From positions 62,001 through 126,000 of the forward strand of contig JAJZES010000020.1 of NCBI GenBank assembly GCA_021845985.1: 64,000 nt of DNA. Direction: 5' to 3'. The stretch comes from Pseudomonadota bacterium (GTDB lineage: Bacteria > Pseudomonadota > Alphaproteobacteria > Acetobacterales > Acetobacteraceae). A program made the translations under genes and the position numbers. Shown piece by piece: positions 6,378 to 16,848 of the stretch (positions within the stretch are counted from its first letter, which is position 1; the number at the start of each line of letters is the position of its first letter). The notes below the pieces were generated by a model that made no database searches, was not told the DNA's origin, and was given only the letters and a program-made list of their open reading frames with translations.

Positions 6378-7835
6378 GTGACCGCCGCTGAGCCGGGAAT
6401 GGCGACCGGCGATGCGGCGCCCAGCCCCGGCAGCACGCGGCTGACGGCGCTGATCGTCGCCTGCGCCCTGTTCATGCAGAACCTCGACGGCACCGTCATC
6501 GCCACCGCGCTGCCGGCGATGGCGCGGTCGTTCGGCGCCGATCCGGTGCACATGAACGTGGCGCTGACCTCCTATCTGCTCAGCCTCGCCGTGTTCATCC
6601 CAATGAGCGGCTGGATGGCCGACCGCTTCGGCGCGCGCACCGTCTTTCGCGGCGCCATCGCCGTGTTCACCATCGGCTCGATCCTGTGCGGCCGGGCCGA
6701 AACGCTGCCCTTCCTGATTGCCGCGCGGGTGCTGCAGGGCGCCGGCGGCGCCATGATGGTGCCGGTCGGCCGGTTGGTACTGCTGCGCACCGCCGCCAAA
6801 AGCGAACTGGTGGCGGCGATGGCCTGGCTGTCCGCCCCGGCGCTGCTCGGCCCGGTGCTGGGGCCGCCGATCGGCGGCATGCTGGTCACCTATGCCTCCT
6901 GGCGCTGGGTGTTCGACATCAACGTGCCGATCGGCGTGCTTGGCATCGTGCTGGTCACCCGCTACGTGCCGGACACGCGCGAGCCGGGGGCGACGCGGCT
7001 CGATATGATCGGCCTCGTGCTCTCCGGCGTGGCAATGGCCAGCCTGATGTTCGGGCTGGAGGCGGTCGGTCGGGGCGTAGTGTCATCTTGGCTTGCCGGC
7101 GGTGCCATCGCGCTCGGCGTCGCCGCCGCCCTGCTCTATTCGCTGCACGCCCGCCGCTCCGCCGCACCGCTGCTCGATTTCACCCTGATGCGGATTCCGA
7201 CCTTCATGGTCTCGGTGGTCGGCGGCTCGCTGTTCCGCATCGGCGTCGGCGCCACACCGTTCCTGCTGCCGCTGATGCTCCAACTCGGCTTCGGCGACAC
7301 CGCGCTGCAAAGCGGTCTCGTCACCTTCGCCAGTTCCGCCGGCGCCATCGTCATGAAGCCCGCCGCCACCACCGCGCTGCGCCTGTTCGGCTTTCGCGAC
7401 ACGCTGCTGTGGAACGGCATCTTCTCCGGCATATCGCTGCTGATCTGCGCCGCGTTCCGCCCCGCCTGGCCGATCGTCGCCATCTACGCCGTGCTGCTCA
7501 CCGGCGGCCTGTTCCGCTCGCTGCAATTCACCGCCTACAACACCATCGCCTATGCCGACATTCCGCCCGGACGGATGAGCGCCGCCACCAGCCTCTATGC
7601 CACGCTGCAGCAGGTTTCGCTGACCCTCGGCGTCACCGCCGGCGCGGCGGCGCTGGAGGTGGCGATGTTGACGCACGGCAATGCCCGCCCGGCCCTGGTC
7701 GATTTCTCCGCCGCCTTCATCGTCATCGCCCTGGTATCGCTGCTCGGCGCACCGATCTCGCTGCTGATGCCGCGCACCGCCGGCGCCGAACTCAGCGGCC
7801 AGCGGGTGCCGACGGCAGCACCAGGTAGAGCGTGA
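6378..7835 (+). CDS. DHA2-family MFS drug/solute exporter (EmrB/QacA type)
   Basis: A 485-residue inner-membrane protein with about 14 hydrophobic segments, as in the 14-TM DHA2 proton antiporters. Motif A-like GWMADRFGARTVF follows TM2. ARVLQGAGGAMMVPVGRLVLLR and LGPVLGPPIGGMLVTYASWRWVFDINVPIG are the EmrB/QacA motif B and C regions. The N-terminal LFMQNLDGTVIATALPAMA is also typical. No HlyD-type adaptor gene accompanies it, so it may act without an EmrA partner. The GTG start at 6378 follows the qor stop by 43 bases. The 3' end overlaps the convergent membrane-protein gene remnant on the other strand by 44 bases. The substrate is unknown. Confidence 0.92.
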   Translation: MTAAEPGMATGDAAPSPGSTRLTALIVACALFMQNLDGTVIATALPAMARSFGADPVHMNVALTSYLLSLAVFIPMSGWMADRFGARTVFRGAIAVFTIGSILCGRAETLPFLIAARVLQGAGGAMMVPVGRLVLLRTAAKSELVAAMAWLSAPALLGPVLGPPIGGMLVTYASWRWVFDINVPIGVLGIVLVTRYVPDTREPGATRLDMIGLVLSGVAMASLMFGLEAVGRGVVSSWLAGGAIALGVAAALLYSLHARRSAAPLLDFTLMRIPTFMVSVVGGSLFRIGVGATPFLLPLMLQLGFGDTALQSGLVTFASSAGAIVMKPAATTALRLFGFRDTLLWNGIFSGISLLICAAFRPAWPIVAIYAVLLTGGLFRSLQFTAYNTIAYADIPPGRMSAATSLYATLQQVSLTLGVTAGAAALEVAMLTHGNARPALVDFSAAFIVIALVSLLGAPISLLMPRTAGAELSGQRVPTAAPGRA

Positions 7836-9074
7836 CCCAGCCGGCGCGCGCCACCTGCCGCAGATATCCCGCTCCCGGCGGCGCCGCCGCATCGGCATCG
7901 GCAGCGAACCGCAGCAGGTAGTCGTAGCGCTGCGGCCAGGCATAGAGCTGGCAGGGGATGTCCGGCATCACCCCGCCGCAGCGCGCGCCCACCGGCGCCC
8001 GCGCCAGCGCCGGGCCGCAGCCGCGGGTTGACCCCGGCGATACCAACCAGCGCCAGCGGCAGGCTGAGCCGCTGATAGACCAGCGCATGGTCCACCAGCT
8101 CCGCCGGCAGCAGCACACAGCAGACGCCAGCACCGGCAAACGCCAGCAGCATCGGCGGCGCCACCCCCAGTCGCCGCCACCACGCCGATGGCCACCCCCT
8201 GTCCGGTGAACCCCGCCAGCAGCCATGCCGGCCGCACGCCCGCCTCCGACCGCAGCCCAAGCCGCAGGATCTGCCCGGCGACGCGCGTCAGCACATCGGC
8301 GCTGGCAGCGGAATGGGCCGGGCCGGCCAGCTTGCCGAGGACCAGCGGCAGGCTCGCCGCCGCCGCCAGCGGGACGGCCCGCCGCGCCAGACCCGCCCCG
8401 CCAGCCCAACGCCCGATCTCCGTCGAGACCATCAGCAGCAGCAGCAGGCCGAAGGCCACGATATGCGACATCAGGCACAGCACGCCCCAGCCGGCCGCCA
8501 CGGCCGCAGTCCCCGCCACCGCCTGCCCGTGCGCCCCGACCGGCCGCCGCGCGTGCCACGCCGCCCCCAGCAGCGCCAGCCCCAGACCGACCAGATAGTT
8601 GAGCCGACCGTACAGCAGAAAGGCGTTGACCGCCGGCAGTACTGCGATCCACGGCCACCAGCTTCGCCGGCCGAACCAGGCACGATGCAGCGCGATCACC
8701 CCGAGCGGCGGCAACAGCATGGCCAATGCGATGAACAGCTTCCCGGCGAGGGTGAGCGGCATCACCTGCGCCAGCCGCGGCACCACGAGGTCCATCGTCA
8801 TGTTGGGGATGAACGACCGCTCGATGCGAAACATCGCCCGCAGCGCCGGGCTGGCCGCGCCGGTTGCCAGCACATGCAGGCGCGCCAGATGAACAGGATA
8901 ATCGACCAGCAGCGGGATGCGCGCCGCCGCCATCGGCAGCAACATCAGCAACGCCAGCGCCGCGAAGGCCGCGCTGTCACGCCGCCACCGCGCCGCGCCG
9001 CGCCGCCGCTCGGCCCAGTTCAGACCGTCCTGGCCGGCCGCCCGGTCAGGCAGCGGCGGTCGCAGATACGTCAT
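7792..9074 (-). pseudogene. Polytopic membrane protein gene broken by two frameshifts
   Basis: The frame starting at ATG 9074 gives an N-terminal cytoplasmic stretch and then several membrane segments, with the motif IPLLVDYPVHLARLHVL in the first loop, resembling large GT-C-like membrane proteins. It is sound to about 8170. There a run of five G on the coding strand (plus-strand C run 8164-8168) ends the good reading. Membrane-like coding resumes in a second frame (VAPPMLLAFAGAG, then LVDHALVYQRLSLPLALVG). Near 8010 it must change again to a third frame, which reads MPDIPCQLYAWPQRYDYLLR and ends at the TGA at 7792-7794. Both shifts could be true decay or sequence errors. The last 44 bases lie antisense to the exporter gene. 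The function is not known. Confidence 0.7.
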
Positions 9075-9166
9075 CGCGGCTGCCCCTGCTGCGCACCTTC
9101 CCCGCCTAAAGCGCGCGACAGGCGATCGGGAAGCCGGCAGACCGGCGCCGCAACGTCACGTTCGCG

Positions 9167-10321
9167 TCAGCCGCGCCCGCCCGGCACCGCCGCCACGCCC
9201 TGAAACAGGCTGATCCCGCGCAACCGCCCCCAGCCCACCGCCGACGCCGAGGCCGCCCGCGCCAGCACCAGCCGCTCCGGCGGCGCGCCGAGCCAGTCGG
9301 GATCGGTCTCCGCCAGCCCCGGCGACCAGCGCAGCTGCAGCAGGTCCAGACCCATGCGGTCGAGCGGCGCCGCCTCCAGCAGATCGACGCCGACGCCGCG
9401 CAGCAGCAGCCGGTAGCCGCGGGCCCGAACGAAATCGCGCGCGAACAGGAAGGCCGGCGGATCGGCCAGAATATCGGCCGTCAGCAGATCGAGCGTGACC
9501 TGCCGGCGCAGCCCGGACGGCAGCGCCGCGTCGAAGCGCAGGAACTCCGGCGCCAGGATGCTGGCGACGTTGAGGTTGAGGCTGAACGGCCCGGCCCCGG
9601 CCAGTTCCCCCGGCGCAGCAAGCAGCGCCAGCATGCGCCGGTCAAGCACACGGGTCAGCCGGCGGAACAGCCACGGATCGGCCGCCACCGCCTGGCCCGG
9701 CGCCAGCACCCCGGCGAGTTCCTCGATTGAAAGAAAGCGCTTTTCCCACAGCTTGCGGAACCCGCCGGCGGCGGTGGCGGCACAGATCGGCCGGCGGCGG
9801 ACGAACCGGGCGACATCGGCCCGCGCCAGCGCCTCCTCCAACGCCGCCAGCGCGACCGCATCGAGCGCCCGGCGCGTCTGCGCCAGCGCCGGCGCCGTGG
9901 CCGGCCGCAGGCTGGTCTCGACGAAGTGCAGCAGCGTTCCGGCATCGGCCGGCAGATCGAGCAGACGGCACAGCGCCAGCGGGTCCGGCGCGCCCTCCCC
10001 GGCATCGGCGAACAGCCGGGCCAGCGCCGCCATGCTCGCCGCCACCGCCGCATCCGCCGCGCCGCGCCAGACCAGCGCCAGATCGCCGTTGGGCAGGACG
10101 AATTCCTGCACCCGCCCGACCAGCCGCAGCGGGTCCAGCGCCGCCCGGGCCAGCCGCAGATGCGTCGGCCGGGCGAAGGCGGCGGGCAGCGCCGACAGCA
10201 GCAGCAGCAGCGCCCGCCGCGCCACCCGCGCCGCGATGCAGTCCTGCGCCAGCGCGATCAGCCGCGCCGCCGCCGCCGCCGGGTCCGGCGGCGCCTCGGC
10301 CCGCGCCGCCGACCCCATCAT
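9167..10321 (-). CDS. Degenerate EAL-domain-like protein (second of a paralogous pair)
   Basis: A 384-residue protein that shares its architecture with the gene just upstream. The N-terminal region contains LRLARAALDPL and the block VLPNGDLALVW. The C-terminal half keeps the skeleton of an EAL phosphodiesterase domain: LNLNVASILAPEFLRFD in place of the VSVNLS strand, GVDLLEAAPLDRMGLDLLQL in place of the D..KID strand, and GISLFQG in place of the closing QG(Y/F). The EAL signature and the metal-binding acidic residues are absent, so cyclic-di-GMP hydrolysis is very unlikely; a sensing or scaffold role is possible. ATG 10321 overlaps the stop of the upstream gene (ATGATG), which implies translational coupling. 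Assignment to the EAL fold is by eye. Confidence 0.68.
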   Translation of the reverse strand: MMGSAARAEAPPDPAAAAARLIALAQDCIAARVARRALLLLLSALPAAFARPTHLRLARAALDPLRLVGRVQEFVLPNGDLALVWRGAADAAVAASMAALARLFADAGEGAPDPLALCRLLDLPADAGTLLHFVETSLRPATAPALAQTRRALDAVALAALEEALARADVARFVRRRPICAATAAGGFRKLWEKRFLSIEELAGVLAPGQAVAADPWLFRRLTRVLDRRMLALLAAPGELAGAGPFSLNLNVASILAPEFLRFDAALPSGLRRQVTLDLLTADILADPPAFLFARDFVRARGYRLLLRGVGVDLLEAAPLDRMGLDLLQLRWSPGLAETDPDWLGAPPERLVLARAASASAVGWGRLRGISLFQGVAAVPGGRG

Positions 10322-11709
10322 GCCGCGGCGTCCAGCAGCGGCTGATTGCGGCAGAACCGCCGCCCGGCCGGGCCGGTCGCCGCGCCGCGCTCCTGGCATT
10401 GCCGCAAGGTGCATGCGGCGGCCTGCGGACAGATCAGCATGCGGCCGGCGGCCAGCATGGCATCGACATACCGGCCCTGGAACCGCCGGATCCCCTCGGC
10501 CCGGCCCCAGGCGATGGCCGCCTCGTCCTCGGCGCGTTGCAGCACGATGCGCGCCGGCCCGGCCGCGCGCAGCCCCGCCGCCAGTTCCACCCGCTCGCCA
10601 CCGGCAAGCTCGGACAGCCGCGGCGACCAGTCGAGCTTCATCAGATCGGCCCGCAGCCGCCACGGCCGCCCCAGCAGCAAGGCCAGATACGGCACGCAAT
10701 CGAGCACCAATGTCACACCCAGCGCCGCCGCCGCGGCGCGCGCCTGGGCAAATCCGGCGGCATCGGCCGTGGCCTCGACCAGTGAGACCTCGGCGCCGAG
10801 GCGTTGCCCGAGCGCCTGGCAGCGCCGGGCGAAGCCGGCAAACTCGCCGCCAAGCAGGGTCGGCAGCGCGAGATTCAGATGCAGCCGCGGCGTTCGTGCC
10901 CGCGCCGCGTCGAGCGGACCGCCGCCGCCAAGCGCGCCCGTCAGCGCCGCCAGCATGCGCCGGTCGAGCCGCGCCGCGAGGTGGCGGAACAGATAAGGGT
11001 CGGCCGCCGCAGTGGCGCCGGCGCGCGCCTCCAGCGCCGGGATACTGAAACCAAGCTCGCGATACAGCGGTCGCAACCCCGCCGCCCCCGGTCCCACCAG
11101 CGCGGCGGTCTGCGCCTGGGTAATGTCGGCGATGCCGGCCTGCTGCAGCACCACCTCCATCGCCTCGACCAGATGCGCCGCGTCGGGCGCCGGTGTGGCG
11201 GCTGGTGCTGGCCGGACGAGGCTTTCGGCCAGCCGTTCGGCGGCATAGGCGAGCACGGCATGGCCTTCGCCGGCCAGCCGCCAGCGCGACATAAGCGTCG
11301 CCGCGTCCGCAACATCGGGCCGCAGCAGCCGGCCGAGCACCGATGGCAACCGGCCGGGGGACGACGCGGCGGCGGCGTCGCCGCCGGCGCGGTCATCGTC
11401 ATCGTCATCATCGTCGCGGCAGAGCAGCGCCAGATCGCCGTTGCCGAGGCTGAAAACCTGCCCGTCATGCAACTGTGCGGTGTCCTGGAGGATGGCGCGG
11501 GCGATGCGCACATGATGCGGCCGCGGCGCCGGCGGACGCAGCCGCGACAGGTGCAGCACCAGCGCAATCCGACCCTCGGGATGGCGCAGCGCCCGCTCCG
11601 CGGCATCGCGCAGATGCCGCTCGCCGGCCGCACCCGGCGCAACGATCCGCCATGCTGCGACTTTGAGGGCCGGGCTGCGGATCGCATCCGGTTCCGTCAT
11701 TTCGGCCAC
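10318..11709 (-). CDS. Degenerate EAL-domain-like protein (first of a paralogous pair)
   Basis: A 463-residue cytoplasmic protein. The N-terminal region has an [20 protein letters not shown] segment and VFSLGNGDLALLCR, which matches the second protein's VLPNGDLALVW. A run of eight Asp follows. The C-terminal part, from about residue 215, resembles an EAL domain (LHLNLALPTLLGGEFAGFA, RADLMKLDWSPRLSE, AIAWGRAEGIRRFQGRYVD). The catalytic Glu/Asp set is missing and a Cys-rich tail (ICPQAAACTLRQC) is added. The start is GTG 11709; ATG 11700 is an alternative three codons in. It is divergent from the phosphoesterase gene. It probably works with its coupled paralogue. The function is unknown, and the EAL relation is inferred from pattern only. 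Confidence 0.68.
   Translation of the reverse strand: MAEMTEPDAIRSPALKVAAWRIVAPGAAGERHLRDAAERALRHPEGRIALVLHLSRLRPPAPRPHHVRIARAILQDTAQLHDGQVFSLGNGDLALLCRDDDDDDDDRAGGDAAAASSPGRLPSVLGRLLRPDVADAATLMSRWRLAGEGHAVLAYAAERLAESLVRPAPAATPAPDAAHLVEAMEVVLQQAGIADITQAQTAALVGPGAAGLRPLYRELGFSIPALEARAGATAAADPYLFRHLAARLDRRMLAALTGALGGGGPLDAARARTPRLHLNLALPTLLGGEFAGFARRCQALGQRLGAEVSLVEATADAAGFAQARAAAAALGVTLVLDCVPYLALLLGRPWRLRADLMKLDWSPRLSELAGGERVELAAGLRAAGPARIVLQRAEDEAAIAWGRAEGIRRFQGRYVDAMLAAGRMLICPQAAACTLRQCQERGAATGPAGRRFCRNQPLLDAAA
11392..11415. repeat. Trinucleotide microsatellite coding an Asp-8 run
   Basis: Eight successive GTC/ATC triplets on the plus strand read as GAC/GAT codons on the minus strand. They insert eight Asp residues between LLCR and RAGG of the first EAL-like protein. 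The paralogue next to it has no such run. Such slip-prone tracts can vary in length without breaking the frame. Confidence 0.85.
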
Positions 11710-12597: not shown

Positions 12598-14016
12598 ATG
12601 GCACGAGCTGAGGACGACACGGCGACAACGACGGATCTGGCGCAGGCGGTCCGCCGCCTCGGCCGCGCCAGCGTGCTGGTGGTGGGTGATGCCATGCTCG
12701 ACCAATATGTTTGTGGCCAGGTCGAGCGGGTCAGCCCGGAAGCACCGGTGCCGGTGCTGGCGGTCGAGCGCGAGCTGGCCATGCCGGGAGGGGCCGGCAA
12801 CGTGGTGCGCAATCTCGGCGCGCTCGGCGCCGCCGTCGCCTTCGTCTCGGTGGTCGGCGATGACCAGGCCGGCAGCGACCTGACCGGGCTGATCGGCGGC
12901 CAGCCGGGCGTCGAGCCTTGGCTGCTGGTCGAGGGCGGGCGCATCACCACGACGAAAATCCGCATGCTGGCGCACGGCCAGCAATTGCTGCGCGTCGATC
13001 GTGAGCAGACCTCGCCGATCCACCCCAAACTCGCCGAACGGCTGCTGCGCATCGCCCGCGACGCGATGGCGGCGACCAGCGTGACCATTCTCTCCGACTA
13101 TCGCAAGGGCGTGCTGGCCGGCGACCTGCCGGGGCAGCTCATCGCCGCGGCGCGGCAGGCGGGGCGGCGGGTGCTGGCCGATGTGCGTGGCGGCGATGCC
13201 GCGTCCTATGCCGGCGCCGACGTGCTGCTGACCGGCCGGCGCGACCTCGCGCGGGCCAGCGGCCTGCCGGTCGATGACGACGCCGCCATCGCCGCGGCGG
13301 CCGAGGCGTTGCGCCATGCCCACGGCTTCGGCGCCGTGCTGGTCGGCCGCGGCGAGGCGGGGGTAACGCTGGCTCATGAGGGCGATACCGTCCATCTGCG
13401 CGGCGAGGCGATGGAGGTGTTCGACGTCTCCGGTGCCGGCGATACCGCGGTGGCGACGCTCGGCGCCGCGCTGGCCACCGGGGCGACGCTGACCCTGGCG
13501 GCGCGGCTGGCCAATCTCGCCGCGCGCATCGCCATGGGCCGGGTCGGAACCGCGGTGGTGCGCGAACAGGATTTTCTCGCCGCGCTATCGCCCGAACACG
13601 GGGTTTTGCGCAAGATCGTCTCGCCGGAGACAGCGGCCGAGCAGATCGAACGCTGGCGCCGCCGCGGCCTGCGCAGCGGTGTGGTGTTGGGCTGCTTCGA
13701 CCCGCTCGGCCCCGGTCACCAGCATTTGCTGACCCAGGCGCGCGCCCGCTGCGACCGGCTGGTGGTGGCGCTGGCCGACGACGCCGAGGTGCGGCGGCGC
13801 AAGGGTGCCGACCGGCCGCTGCAGATGGAGGCCGACCGTGCCGCCCGGCTCGCCGCCTTGGCAGCGGTCGATCTCGTCGTCACCGGGCATGACGGCCCGC
13901 CGTCGGCGCTGCTGCAGACCTTGCGGCCGGATCTGCTGGTCACCGGCGGCACCGCGCCGGTGGCCGACTGGAGCGGCGACGTGCTGCAGGGCGAGCGGCT
14001 GGCCGAACCCGCCTGA
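12598..14016 (+). CDS. hldE: HldE-like D-heptose-7-phosphate kinase with a degenerate nucleotidyltransferase domain
   Basis: HldE normally makes ADP-heptose precursors for the lipopolysaccharide core by combining a ribokinase-fold kinase and an adenylyltransferase. The kinase half (about residues 20-340) looks intact: VVGDAMLDQYVCGQVERVSP, MPGGAGNVVRNLGALGA, SDYRKGVL and the catalytic SGAGDTA. In the C-terminal half the nucleotide-binding HxGH motif reads GCFDPLGPGHQHL, so the first His is Gly. The usual VKGGDY is VTGGTAP. The protein stops about 16 residues later, lacking the last 30 or so residues that carry the STT-type motif. Total length is 472 because of an N-terminal extension. Kinase activity is likely; transferase activity is doubtful. 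Confidence 0.85.
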   Translation: MARAEDDTATTTDLAQAVRRLGRASVLVVGDAMLDQYVCGQVERVSPEAPVPVLAVERELAMPGGAGNVVRNLGALGAAVAFVSVVGDDQAGSDLTGLIGGQPGVEPWLLVEGGRITTTKIRMLAHGQQLLRVDREQTSPIHPKLAERLLRIARDAMAATSVTILSDYRKGVLAGDLPGQLIAAARQAGRRVLADVRGGDAASYAGADVLLTGRRDLARASGLPVDDDAAIAAAAEALRHAHGFGAVLVGRGEAGVTLAHEGDTVHLRGEAMEVFDVSGAGDTAVATLGAALATGATLTLAARLANLAARIAMGRVGTAVVREQDFLAALSPEHGVLRKIVSPETAAEQIERWRRRGLRSGVVLGCFDPLGPGHQHLLTQARARCDRLVVALADDAEVRRRKGADRPLQMEADRAARLAALAAVDLVVTGHDGPPSALLQTLRPDLLVTGGTAPVADWSGDVLQGERLAEPA

Positions 14017-14022
14017 TGCCGG

Positions 14023-14634
14023 TTAGCCGACCAGCACCCCGTGCTGGCGCAGAAACCCGAGCAGCGGCAGCAGCGGCAGCCCGACGATGGCGGCGTGCTC
14101 GCCCGCCACCGCATCAAACAGATGCACCCCGCGGCCCTCCAGCCGATAGGCGCCGACCGTCGCGCACAGCCCCTCACCCTCGGCCGCCAGATAGGCGTCG
14201 AGAAACGCATCGCTGAACCCCCGCATGGTCAGCCGCGGCCGTGCCACATGCTGCCACAGACGTTGCCCGTCGCGCAGGCACAGCACCGCCGTCATCAGCG
14301 TATGGCTGCGGCCGCGCAGCGCCGTCAGTTGGGCGCGCGCCTCCTCGATGTCGCGCGGCTTGTCGAACCAGCGGTCGCCGCAGACGAGCAACTGGTCGCA
14401 GCCGATGACCAGCGCCGCGGGATGTCGCCGGGCAATGCGCTCGGCTTTCAGCGCCGCGAGCAGCAGCGCGGTGTCGTCGGCAGCCGCCCCCTCGCGCTGC
14501 GCCGCCTGCTTGACCGCCGCCTCGTCGATCGCTGCCGCCGTCGCGGTGAACTGCAGCCCGGCGCGCTCCAGCAGCGTCCGCCGCGCCGCCGAGGCGCTGG
14601 CCAGGATCAGTTCCGGCATCGCCGCCTGCAGCAT
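14023..14634 (-). CDS. maf: Maf-family nucleotide pyrophosphatase
   Basis: A 203-residue house-cleaning pyrophosphatase that hydrolyses non-canonical or modified nucleotides. It opens with LILASASAARRTLLERAGL, matching the family's substrate-loop signature. It continues with VIGCDQLLVCGDRWFDKP and ARAQLTALRGRSHTLMTAV. ATG 14634 shares one base with the ppsR stop (TGATG), so the two are translationally coupled. ATG 14619 is a possible internal start. The ppsR-maf order is the one found on the left side of alphaproteobacterial origins. The hldE gene converges, with six bases between the stops. Confidence 0.92.
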   Translation of the reverse strand: MLQAAMPELILASASAARRTLLERAGLQFTATAAAIDEAAVKQAAQREGAAADDTALLLAALKAERIARRHPAALVIGCDQLLVCGDRWFDKPRDIEEARAQLTALRGRSHTLMTAVLCLRDGQRLWQHVARPRLTMRGFSDAFLDAYLAAEGEGLCATVGAYRLEGRGVHLFDAVAGEHAAIVGLPLLPLLGFLRQHGVLVG

Positions 14635-15497
14635 CAGGGTGCCGCGGTCTCGGTCTTGCGCCGGCGCAGATGCCAGGCGTCCATCAGCTGCAGCACCGTC
14701 GCCGCCGTCTCCTCGATCGAGCGGCGGGTAACGTCGATCACCGGCCAGCCGCGCCGCGCGCACAGCCGCCGCGCCCACAGCAATTCGGTCTTCACCGTCT
14801 CTAGATCGACATAATCCCCGCTGTCATGGCGCAGCGGCGCCGACGGGCCGCCGGCGCCGATCAGCCGCAGCCGGTGGCGGCGGATTTCGATCAGCGCCTC
14901 GGCATCCAGCGTCAGCCCGATCACCGGCGTCTGCGGCGCCTCCAGTCCGGGCGGGTCGGGCAGATTGGGCACCAGCGGGATATTGGCCGCCTTGATGCCG
15001 CGATTGGCGAGATAAAACGAGGTCGGCGTTTTCGACGAGCGCGACACGCCGACCAGCACCACGTCGGCGTCGGCGATGCCGGCCGGGGACTGGCCGTCGT
15101 CATGGGCAAGGACGAAATGCATGGCGTCGATGCGGCGGAAATAATCGGCGTCGAGCACGTATTGCCGCCCCGGCCGCGACATCGCCGCCTCGCCGAACTG
15201 ATCCTGCAGCATCGTCAGCACCGGATCGAGCACATGCACCACCGCGACCCCGAGCCGATGGCACGCCGTTTCCATCTCGGCGCGCAAGCTTTTTTCCACC
15301 AGCGTCGAAAGCACCGGGCCGGGTTCCGCCTCGATCCCCTCCAGAACCCGGTGAAGCTGAAAGCGGGTGCGGATCAGGCTCCAGCGATGATGCACGATCT
15401 GCGCGTGCTCGAACTGGGCGACGGTGGCGCGGGCGATCGAGTTCAGCGTCTCGCCGGTGGCGTCCGACACCAAATGCAGATTGATCCGGTTGGACAT
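14634..15497 (-). CDS. ppsR: Pyruvate, phosphate dikinase / PEP synthase regulatory protein (PPSR, DUF299)
   Basis: A 287-residue bifunctional kinase/pyrophosphorylase that phosphorylates a threonine of PPDK or PEP synthase with ADP and reverses this with phosphate. It opens with [19 protein letters not shown], characteristic of DUF299. The P-loop-like [18 protein letters not shown] is intact, followed by ANIPLVP. The frame is open 18 codons further, but ATG 15497 (MSNRINLH) starts exactly at the family N-terminus. In Rickettsia and Caulobacter this family (RP001/CC_0001) flanks oriC, as it appears to here. The target enzyme is not in the window. Confidence 0.93.
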
Positions 15498-15699
15498 GTC
15501 AGGGCGCACCGATGCTGAGGCGGCCGAGGATACCGGGGATTGCGGGGACAATCATCCCCGTCCGCCAGCGCTGCTGTGAGAGTCGGGGATGACCGGGCCG
15601 GACGCGGGTACGGTTGACAAGCTGAGGGCGGCGCCCGTGCCATCTGTGGACAGACCGGCCGGCGCCGCCCCGGCGGGCGAGTCGCCTGCCTGCGCAGAC

Positions 15700-15708
15700 T
15701 GTGGATAA
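15700..15708 (-). promoter_or_regulatory. DnaA box (perfect)
   Basis: The plus strand reads TGTGGATAA, the exact complement of the consensus TTATCCACA. It faces the second box 35 bases away. Confidence 0.8.
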
Positions 15709-15743
15709 CAACCGGGGAAGCACCGGGTCAGCCGGGTACCACC

Positions 15744-15752
15744 TTATCCACA
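15744..15752 (+). promoter_or_regulatory. DnaA box (perfect)
   Basis: The plus strand reads TTATCCACA, an exact match to the DnaA consensus. It sits directly next to the AT-rich segment upstream of hemE. Confidence 0.82.
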
Positions 15753-15828
15753 GGCATCTACTGTTTCCGCAATCTCCTCTTTAGAGTTTATCTGTTAAGA
15801 GAAAGTGGACCGGCAGGACAGGACGACC

Positions 15829-16848
15829 ATGGGCAAACGGCTGCTGCGTGCTTTGGCGGGCGAGGCGGTATGGCCGCCGCCGCTGTGGCTGATGCGTCAG
15901 GCCGGGCGCTATCTGCCGGAATACCGCGCGCTGCGCGCCGAGGCCGGCGATTTCGTGAGTCTGTGCACGACACCGGCGCTCGCCGCCGAGGTGACGCTGC
16001 AGCCGCTGCGCCGCTATGGCATGGATGCCGCGATCCTGTTCAGCGACATCCTGATGCTGCCCTGGGCGCTCGGTCAGGGGCTGCGCTTCGCCGAGGGCGA
16101 GGGGCCGATGCTGCCGCCGATCCGCGACGCGGCGGGGCTGGCCACGCTCGATCCGGCGCGGCTGCCGGGCGCCATCGCGCCGATCCTGGAGGCGGTGCGG
16201 CGGGTCCGCGCCGAGGTTGGCGACGCGGCGCTGATCGGCTTCGCCGGCGCCCCGTTCACCGTCGCCTGTTACATGATCGAGGGGCATGGCGGTGATTTCG
16301 CCGAGGCGCGCGCCCTGGCATGGCGCGACCCGGCGCTGTTTGGCGCGCTCATGGCGCTGCTGACCGAAACCACCATCATCTATCTGGCGGCGCAGATCGA
16401 GGCCGGGGCGGAGGCGGTGATGCTGTTCGACAGTTGGGCCGGTCTGCTGCCGCCGGCACTGTTCCGCCGCCATGTCATCGCCCCGGCGGCGCAGATCACC
16501 GCGGCGCTGCGCGCCCGCTCCCCCACCGTGCCGGTGATCGGCTTTCCGCGGCTGGCCGGGCTGCTGCTCGGTGCCTATGCGGCGGCGACCAAGGTGCAGG
16601 GTCTCGGTCTCGACACCGCCGCCGACCCGACCGAGGCGGCGCGGCTGGTGCCGGCGACGATGGCGCTGCAGGGCAATCTCGATCCGCTGGCGCTGGTCGC
16701 CGGCGGTGCGGCGATGGCGGACGGCATCGCCGACATCCTGGCGGCGATGCGCGGACGGCCGTTCGTGTTCAATCTCGGCCACGGCATCGTGCCGCTGACG
16801 CCGCCCGAGCATGTCGCCGATCTCGTCCGTCTCGTGCGGGCGGCTTGA
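15829..16848 (+). CDS. hemE: Uroporphyrinogen decarboxylase
   Basis: HemE removes four carboxyl groups from uroporphyrinogen III to give coproporphyrinogen III. The 339-residue protein has the family signatures PPLWLMRQAGRYLPEYR near the N-terminus, AAILFSDILMLPWALG with the catalytic-site Asp, and IGFAGAPFTVACYMIEG. It ends with FNLGHGIVPLTPPEHV. An in-frame GTG exists at 15805, but ATG 15829 follows AGGACG and gives the usual length. It leads the haem block hemE-hemH-HAD-hemJ, with hemH 31 bases downstream, and borders the probable origin on its left. Confidence 0.96.
   Translation: MGKRLLRALAGEAVWPPPLWLMRQAGRYLPEYRALRAEAGDFVSLCTTPALAAEVTLQPLRRYGMDAAILFSDILMLPWALGQGLRFAEGEGPMLPPIRDAAGLATLDPARLPGAIAPILEAVRRVRAEVGDAALIGFAGAPFTVACYMIEGHGGDFAEARALAWRDPALFGALMALLTETTIIYLAAQIEAGAEAVMLFDSWAGLLPPALFRRHVIAPAAQITAALRARSPTVPVIGFPRLAGLLLGAYAAATKVQGLGLDTAADPTEAARLVPATMALQGNLDPLALVAGGAAMADGIADILAAMRGRPFVFNLGHGIVPLTPPEHVADLVRLVRAA

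Follow-up and report, generated by a model that had tools for sequence, protein, structure and literature searches.

Does the short divergent intergene between PPSR and hemE house the chromosomal replication origin of an uncultured Acetobacteraceae bacterium? The stretch analysed here, referred to as the window, comprises 64,000 nucleotides (C39:62001-126000) of a 45-contig draft genome of 3,780,912 bp that is 98.9% complete, and whose closest named relatives, on which its assignment to the Acetobacteraceae rests, are uncultured Acetobacteraceae/Rhodospirillales MAGs, Acidisphaera, Rhodopila and Limobrevibacterium. The gap separates the PPSR start codon (ATG at 15498, minus strand) from the hemE start codon (ATG at 15829), is 330 bp long with a GC content of 65%, and lies on a contig that carries housekeeping chromosomal genes. 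PPSR and then Maf occupy the minus strand to its left, divergently from hemE, which is followed on the plus strand by hemH, a HAD hydrolase gene, hemJ (UPF0093) and rho. Matches to Pfam and NCBIfam (PF03618, Maf, URO-D, ferrochelatase, UPF0093 and Rho) confirm these flanking genes, and with them the PPSR-maf pair and the hem block named in a first-pass annotation of this DNA. That annotation also placed a switch of gene direction at the gap, which holds for PPSR-maf relative to the hem genes; the change is only a local one, since two genes beyond maf on that side, encoding a PfkB/cytidylyltransferase (12598-14016) and a metallophosphatase, are oriented towards the gap again. Farther left, several long overlapping open frames on the minus strand (7792-11709) have no Pfam match at E 0.001.

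Features of the PPSR-hemE intergene and its boundary genes (window coordinates)
Feature	Coordinates	Strand	Basis or remark
PPSR (PF03618 kinase-PPPase, COG1806), left boundary gene	14634..15498	-	
Putative oriC, whole PPSR-hemE intergene	15499..15828	.	65% GC; synteny in 105 loci
Weak DnaA-like site, CAATCCCCG here; family consensus TTATCCCCG (43/82 exact)	15534..15542	-	family alignment
Weak DnaA-like site, TCATCCCCG here; family consensus TTATCCCCG	15584..15592	-	family alignment
Degenerate DnaA box CTGTCCACA, 2 mismatches; position partly conserved in family	15645..15653	-	
Exact DnaA box TTATCCACA, left half of conserved inverted pair	15700..15708	-	pattern scan, family alignment
Conserved palindromic block, family GGGTACCCC(G), GGGTACCACC here; abuts right DnaA box	15734..15743	+	family alignment
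Exact DnaA box TTATCCACA, pointing towards AT-rich segment	15744..15752	+	pattern scan, family alignment
Spacer (GGCAT), then DnaA-trio-like CTACTGTTT	15753..15766	+	family tract 3-nt periodic, CTAC-enriched
AT-rich segment, 64% AT, probable DNA unwinding element	15757..15806	.	composition
hemE, uroporphyrinogen decarboxylase (TIGR01464), right boundary gene	15829..16848	+	

The origins of Caulobacter and Rickettsia lie between hemE and COG1806 (PMC1914354), in agreement with the precedent on which the first-pass annotation had drawn. The same study predicts ori regions from DnaA, CtrA and IHF sites, AT content and a shift in GC skew; the window has the position between the two genes, the DnaA boxes and an AT-rich segment above the genome average, and PPSR and hemE are divergent neighbours in 105 sampled loci. 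We conclude that the intergene is almost certainly the chromosomal oriC of this bacterium (probability about 0.95 for this assignment taken jointly with the DnaA model described below). The location of the origin and the conservation of its boxes are shown by computation, and the identification of the element as a hemE-linked alphaproteobacterial oriC, a known kind and ordinary as such, is well supported.

The exact DnaA box TTATCCACA occurs five times in the 3.78-Mb genome (against 14 copies of a reversed control pattern), and two of these copies lie 44 bp apart in the PPSR-hemE gap, within the 53 bp previously noted. Even when loosened to TGTGGANAA...TTNTCCACA, the inverted pair has a single match in the whole genome. 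The two 9-mers had been described as facing each other: they do form an inverted pair whose TTA ends face inward, but the boxes themselves point outwards. Sites with at most one mismatch number two in the 64-kb window, versus 1.8 expected by chance from shuffled sequence, so that the non-random features are the exactness and the pairing of the boxes rather than the site count. This count is what would favour dismissing the boxes and the AT-rich segment as chance features, an explanation with a negligible probability that the exact pair and its genome-wide rarity speak against and that conservation in register already refutes. Indeed, the 82 distinct gaps of the family contain 45 exact boxes versus 0.1 expected from dinucleotide shuffles, and alignment with the relatives' gaps, a check proposed beforehand, shows the two boxes kept in register across the Acetobacteraceae with an invariant column at G15703.

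No DnaA box with at most one mismatch is present in 14 of 104 relatives' PPSR-hemE gaps. Two genomes depart from the common arrangement: in G026 (L082, L175), PPSR and hemE are separated and GGTACC with a near-box remains with hemE, and in G304 (L063, L178), an inverted exact box pair is found about 1.7 Mb from hemE, the hemE flank having no pair. The origin may have changed position in relatives such as these.

To the left of the strong pair, the family alignment reveals an array of weaker sites. TTATCCCCR is found 84 times in the 82 family gaps versus 0.5 expected, with 83 of these sites on the minus strand. The window carries diverged versions (CAATCCCCG and TCATCCCCG) of the TTATCCCCG consensus, and the leftmost site adjoins a second TATCC motif in the alignment (15527-15542). 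The TTATCCCCG-type sites of Acetobacteraceae gaps resemble the W-boxes of Caulobacter (consensus TCCCCA), to which DnaA binds very weakly and in cooperation with G-boxes (PMC4285127, PMC4468827).

To the right of the strong pair, the AT-rich segment stands out as the first-pass annotation had stated, with 36% GC versus about 71% around it, and a fraction of 4.7e-5 of the 50-mers in the window are as AT-rich. The family alignment runs on this side from a GGC-type spacer through a C- and CTA-rich tract into the AT-rich segment. In the window, the right box is followed by GGCAT-CTA-CTG-TTT, comprising three consecutive 3'-NAN-5' trios (15758-15766) that start 5 bp from the box and fit the published search rule for DnaA-trios, which asks for an unbroken run of three or more 3'-NAN-5' trios no farther than 16 bp from a DnaA box (PMC8287927). 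Across the family, strict runs of at least three NAN trios occur in 13 of 82 gaps and thus show no enrichment over the 25.6 expected. Among 56 non-redundant family gaps, lag-3 periodicity reaches a z of 5.4 and CTAC is found in 29 versus 13 expected, in tests that are exploratory because they were chosen after the alignment had been seen. Since the strict rule is unenriched and the periodicity was looked for after alignment, a DnaA-trio-like tract following the right box is plausible, not established. The arrangement is shared with BUS (Bacillus subtilis and others), in which a DnaA box is followed by a short spacer, a 3-nt-periodic tract and AT-rich DNA, and the 3'-GAT-5' trios of BUS correspond to CTA on the plus strand, as in the window's tract. 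Unlike BUS, the family shows no enrichment of strict NAN-trio runs, and its tract is C-rich.

GC skew and parS sites provide evidence beyond the intergene. The skew of the window's own contig is weak (-0.025 to the left and -0.006 to the right), with no minimum at the PPSR-hemE gap; it is too weak to speak for or against an origin there and is the main weakness of the case. Contig C1 of G015 shows a noisy skew along its length that does not decide the matter. In a closed relative (G127; 2,738,877 bp in one contig, with the box pair at 2.68 kb, hemE at 1.6 kb and dnaA at 188 kb), all 20-kb samples are positive from 0 to 1.36 Mb and all are negative from 1.40 to 2.74 Mb, a sign pattern that places the origin-side switch within about 20 kb of the PPSR/hemE locus. 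This relative has three perfect parS sites between 11.2 and 15.1 kb, which puts them 9-12 kb away from its box pair. The sole parS-like site of the window's own genome at up to two mismatches is TGTTTCACATGAAACA (C39:61118-61133; L070:1118-1133), located at the mnmG/rsmG junction near mnmE; parA and parB follow downstream of it. The site lies about 0.9 kb to the left of the window's first position and 16.6 kb from the box pair. Together, the box conservation in the family, the skew of the relative and the proximity of parS and parAB uphold the oriC reading that had been proposed.

These data also bear on two alternative locations. The gap could be the divergent promoter region of hemE and PPSR, with DnaA acting there mainly as a transcription factor and the real origin lying elsewhere; DnaA boxes can regulate genes, and the AT-rich segment is positioned where a hemE promoter would be expected. 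We consider this very unlikely, given the skew switch and nearby parS of the closed relative, the uniqueness of the box pair in the genome and the family-wide array of weak sites in one orientation, although the AT-rich segment may hold the hemE promoter as well. Less probable still is an origin at dnaA-dnaN (contig C34). Origins adjacent to dnaA are common outside the alphaproteobacteria, but the 3.5 kb around dnaA in the window's own genome contain no DnaA box at up to one mismatch, nor does the dnaA locus of the closed relative, in which the skew is unchanged at dnaA, 185 kb from the PPSR/hemE gap. The dnaA-linked candidate was rejected on these grounds.

Under the oriC assignment, DnaA would bind the inverted pair of strong boxes (15700/15744) and, cooperatively, the weaker TTATCCCCG-type array on the minus strand to their left. 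The right-hand box would then direct a DnaA filament into the CTA-containing tract and the AT-rich segment, where the duplex would melt and the helicase would be loaded. For the binding order, the unwinding site and the direction of the filament, this model draws on E. coli, Bacillus and Caulobacter.

The closest described counterpart is Cori of Caulobacter crescentus, which shares the boundary genes, the DnaA boxes between them, a 40-50-bp AT-rich segment and W-box-like weak sites. The two differ in their strong boxes, canonical TTATCCACA in the window versus the G-boxes TGATCCACA of Cori, in their weak sites, here mostly TTATCCCCG, and in the presence of the GGGTACCCC block. Unlike Cori, the window's gap also has neither a CtrA site TTAA-N7-TTAA, whether searched strictly or loosely, nor a match to the IHF consensus WATCA-N5-WTR. 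Strict CtrA sites are found in two of the 82 relatives' gaps; predicted ori regions lacking CtrA sites have been reported (PMC1914354), and these sites, though often present, are thus not required for a hemE/COG1806 oriC. An IHF site is usual in such an oriC but likewise not required; the missing IHF match is weak evidence because the consensus is loose, and IHF-like matches are present in 19 of 82 relatives versus 3.9 expected. The Rickettsia prowazekii ori has the same hemE/COG1806 boundary genes but resides in an AT-rich genome, and CtrA sites are reported for Rickettsia ori regions (PMC1914354). No paper on origins in the Acetobacteraceae emerged from our literature search.

The family gaps are about 1.9-fold enriched in GANTC, the motif that CcrM methylates in alphaproteobacteria (378 occurrences versus 201 expected, both strands). 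Two copies are seen in the window's gap, at 15580-15584 and 15679-15683.

The sole part of this origin that may be new is its family-specific layout of sites, and chiefly the GGGTACCCC block. GGTACC is present in 56 of the 82 family gaps versus 6.3 expected and is sometimes retained where the abutting box has decayed (L112, L120 and L145). When GGTACC plus a box was searched for across the class, only the window's own genome matched among 385; the pattern was too strict for a fair census, and the sample included just four other family members. We tentatively suggest, at somewhat less than even odds, that the block could be a functional element of the origin particular to this family, serving either as a divergent tandem DnaA site or as the target of an origin regulator.

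Fixing the origin of an uncultured Acetobacteraceae genome provides what growth-rate (peak-to-trough) estimates and contig orientation need. The family-wide oriC alignment displays an ordered weak array in one orientation, a fixed inverted strong pair, the GGGTACCCC block and hardly any CtrA sites, and thereby makes initiation control in the Acetobacteraceae testable. If the block does prove to be a functional element, a regulator binding it could replace CtrA in this family, in which CtrA sites are almost absent.
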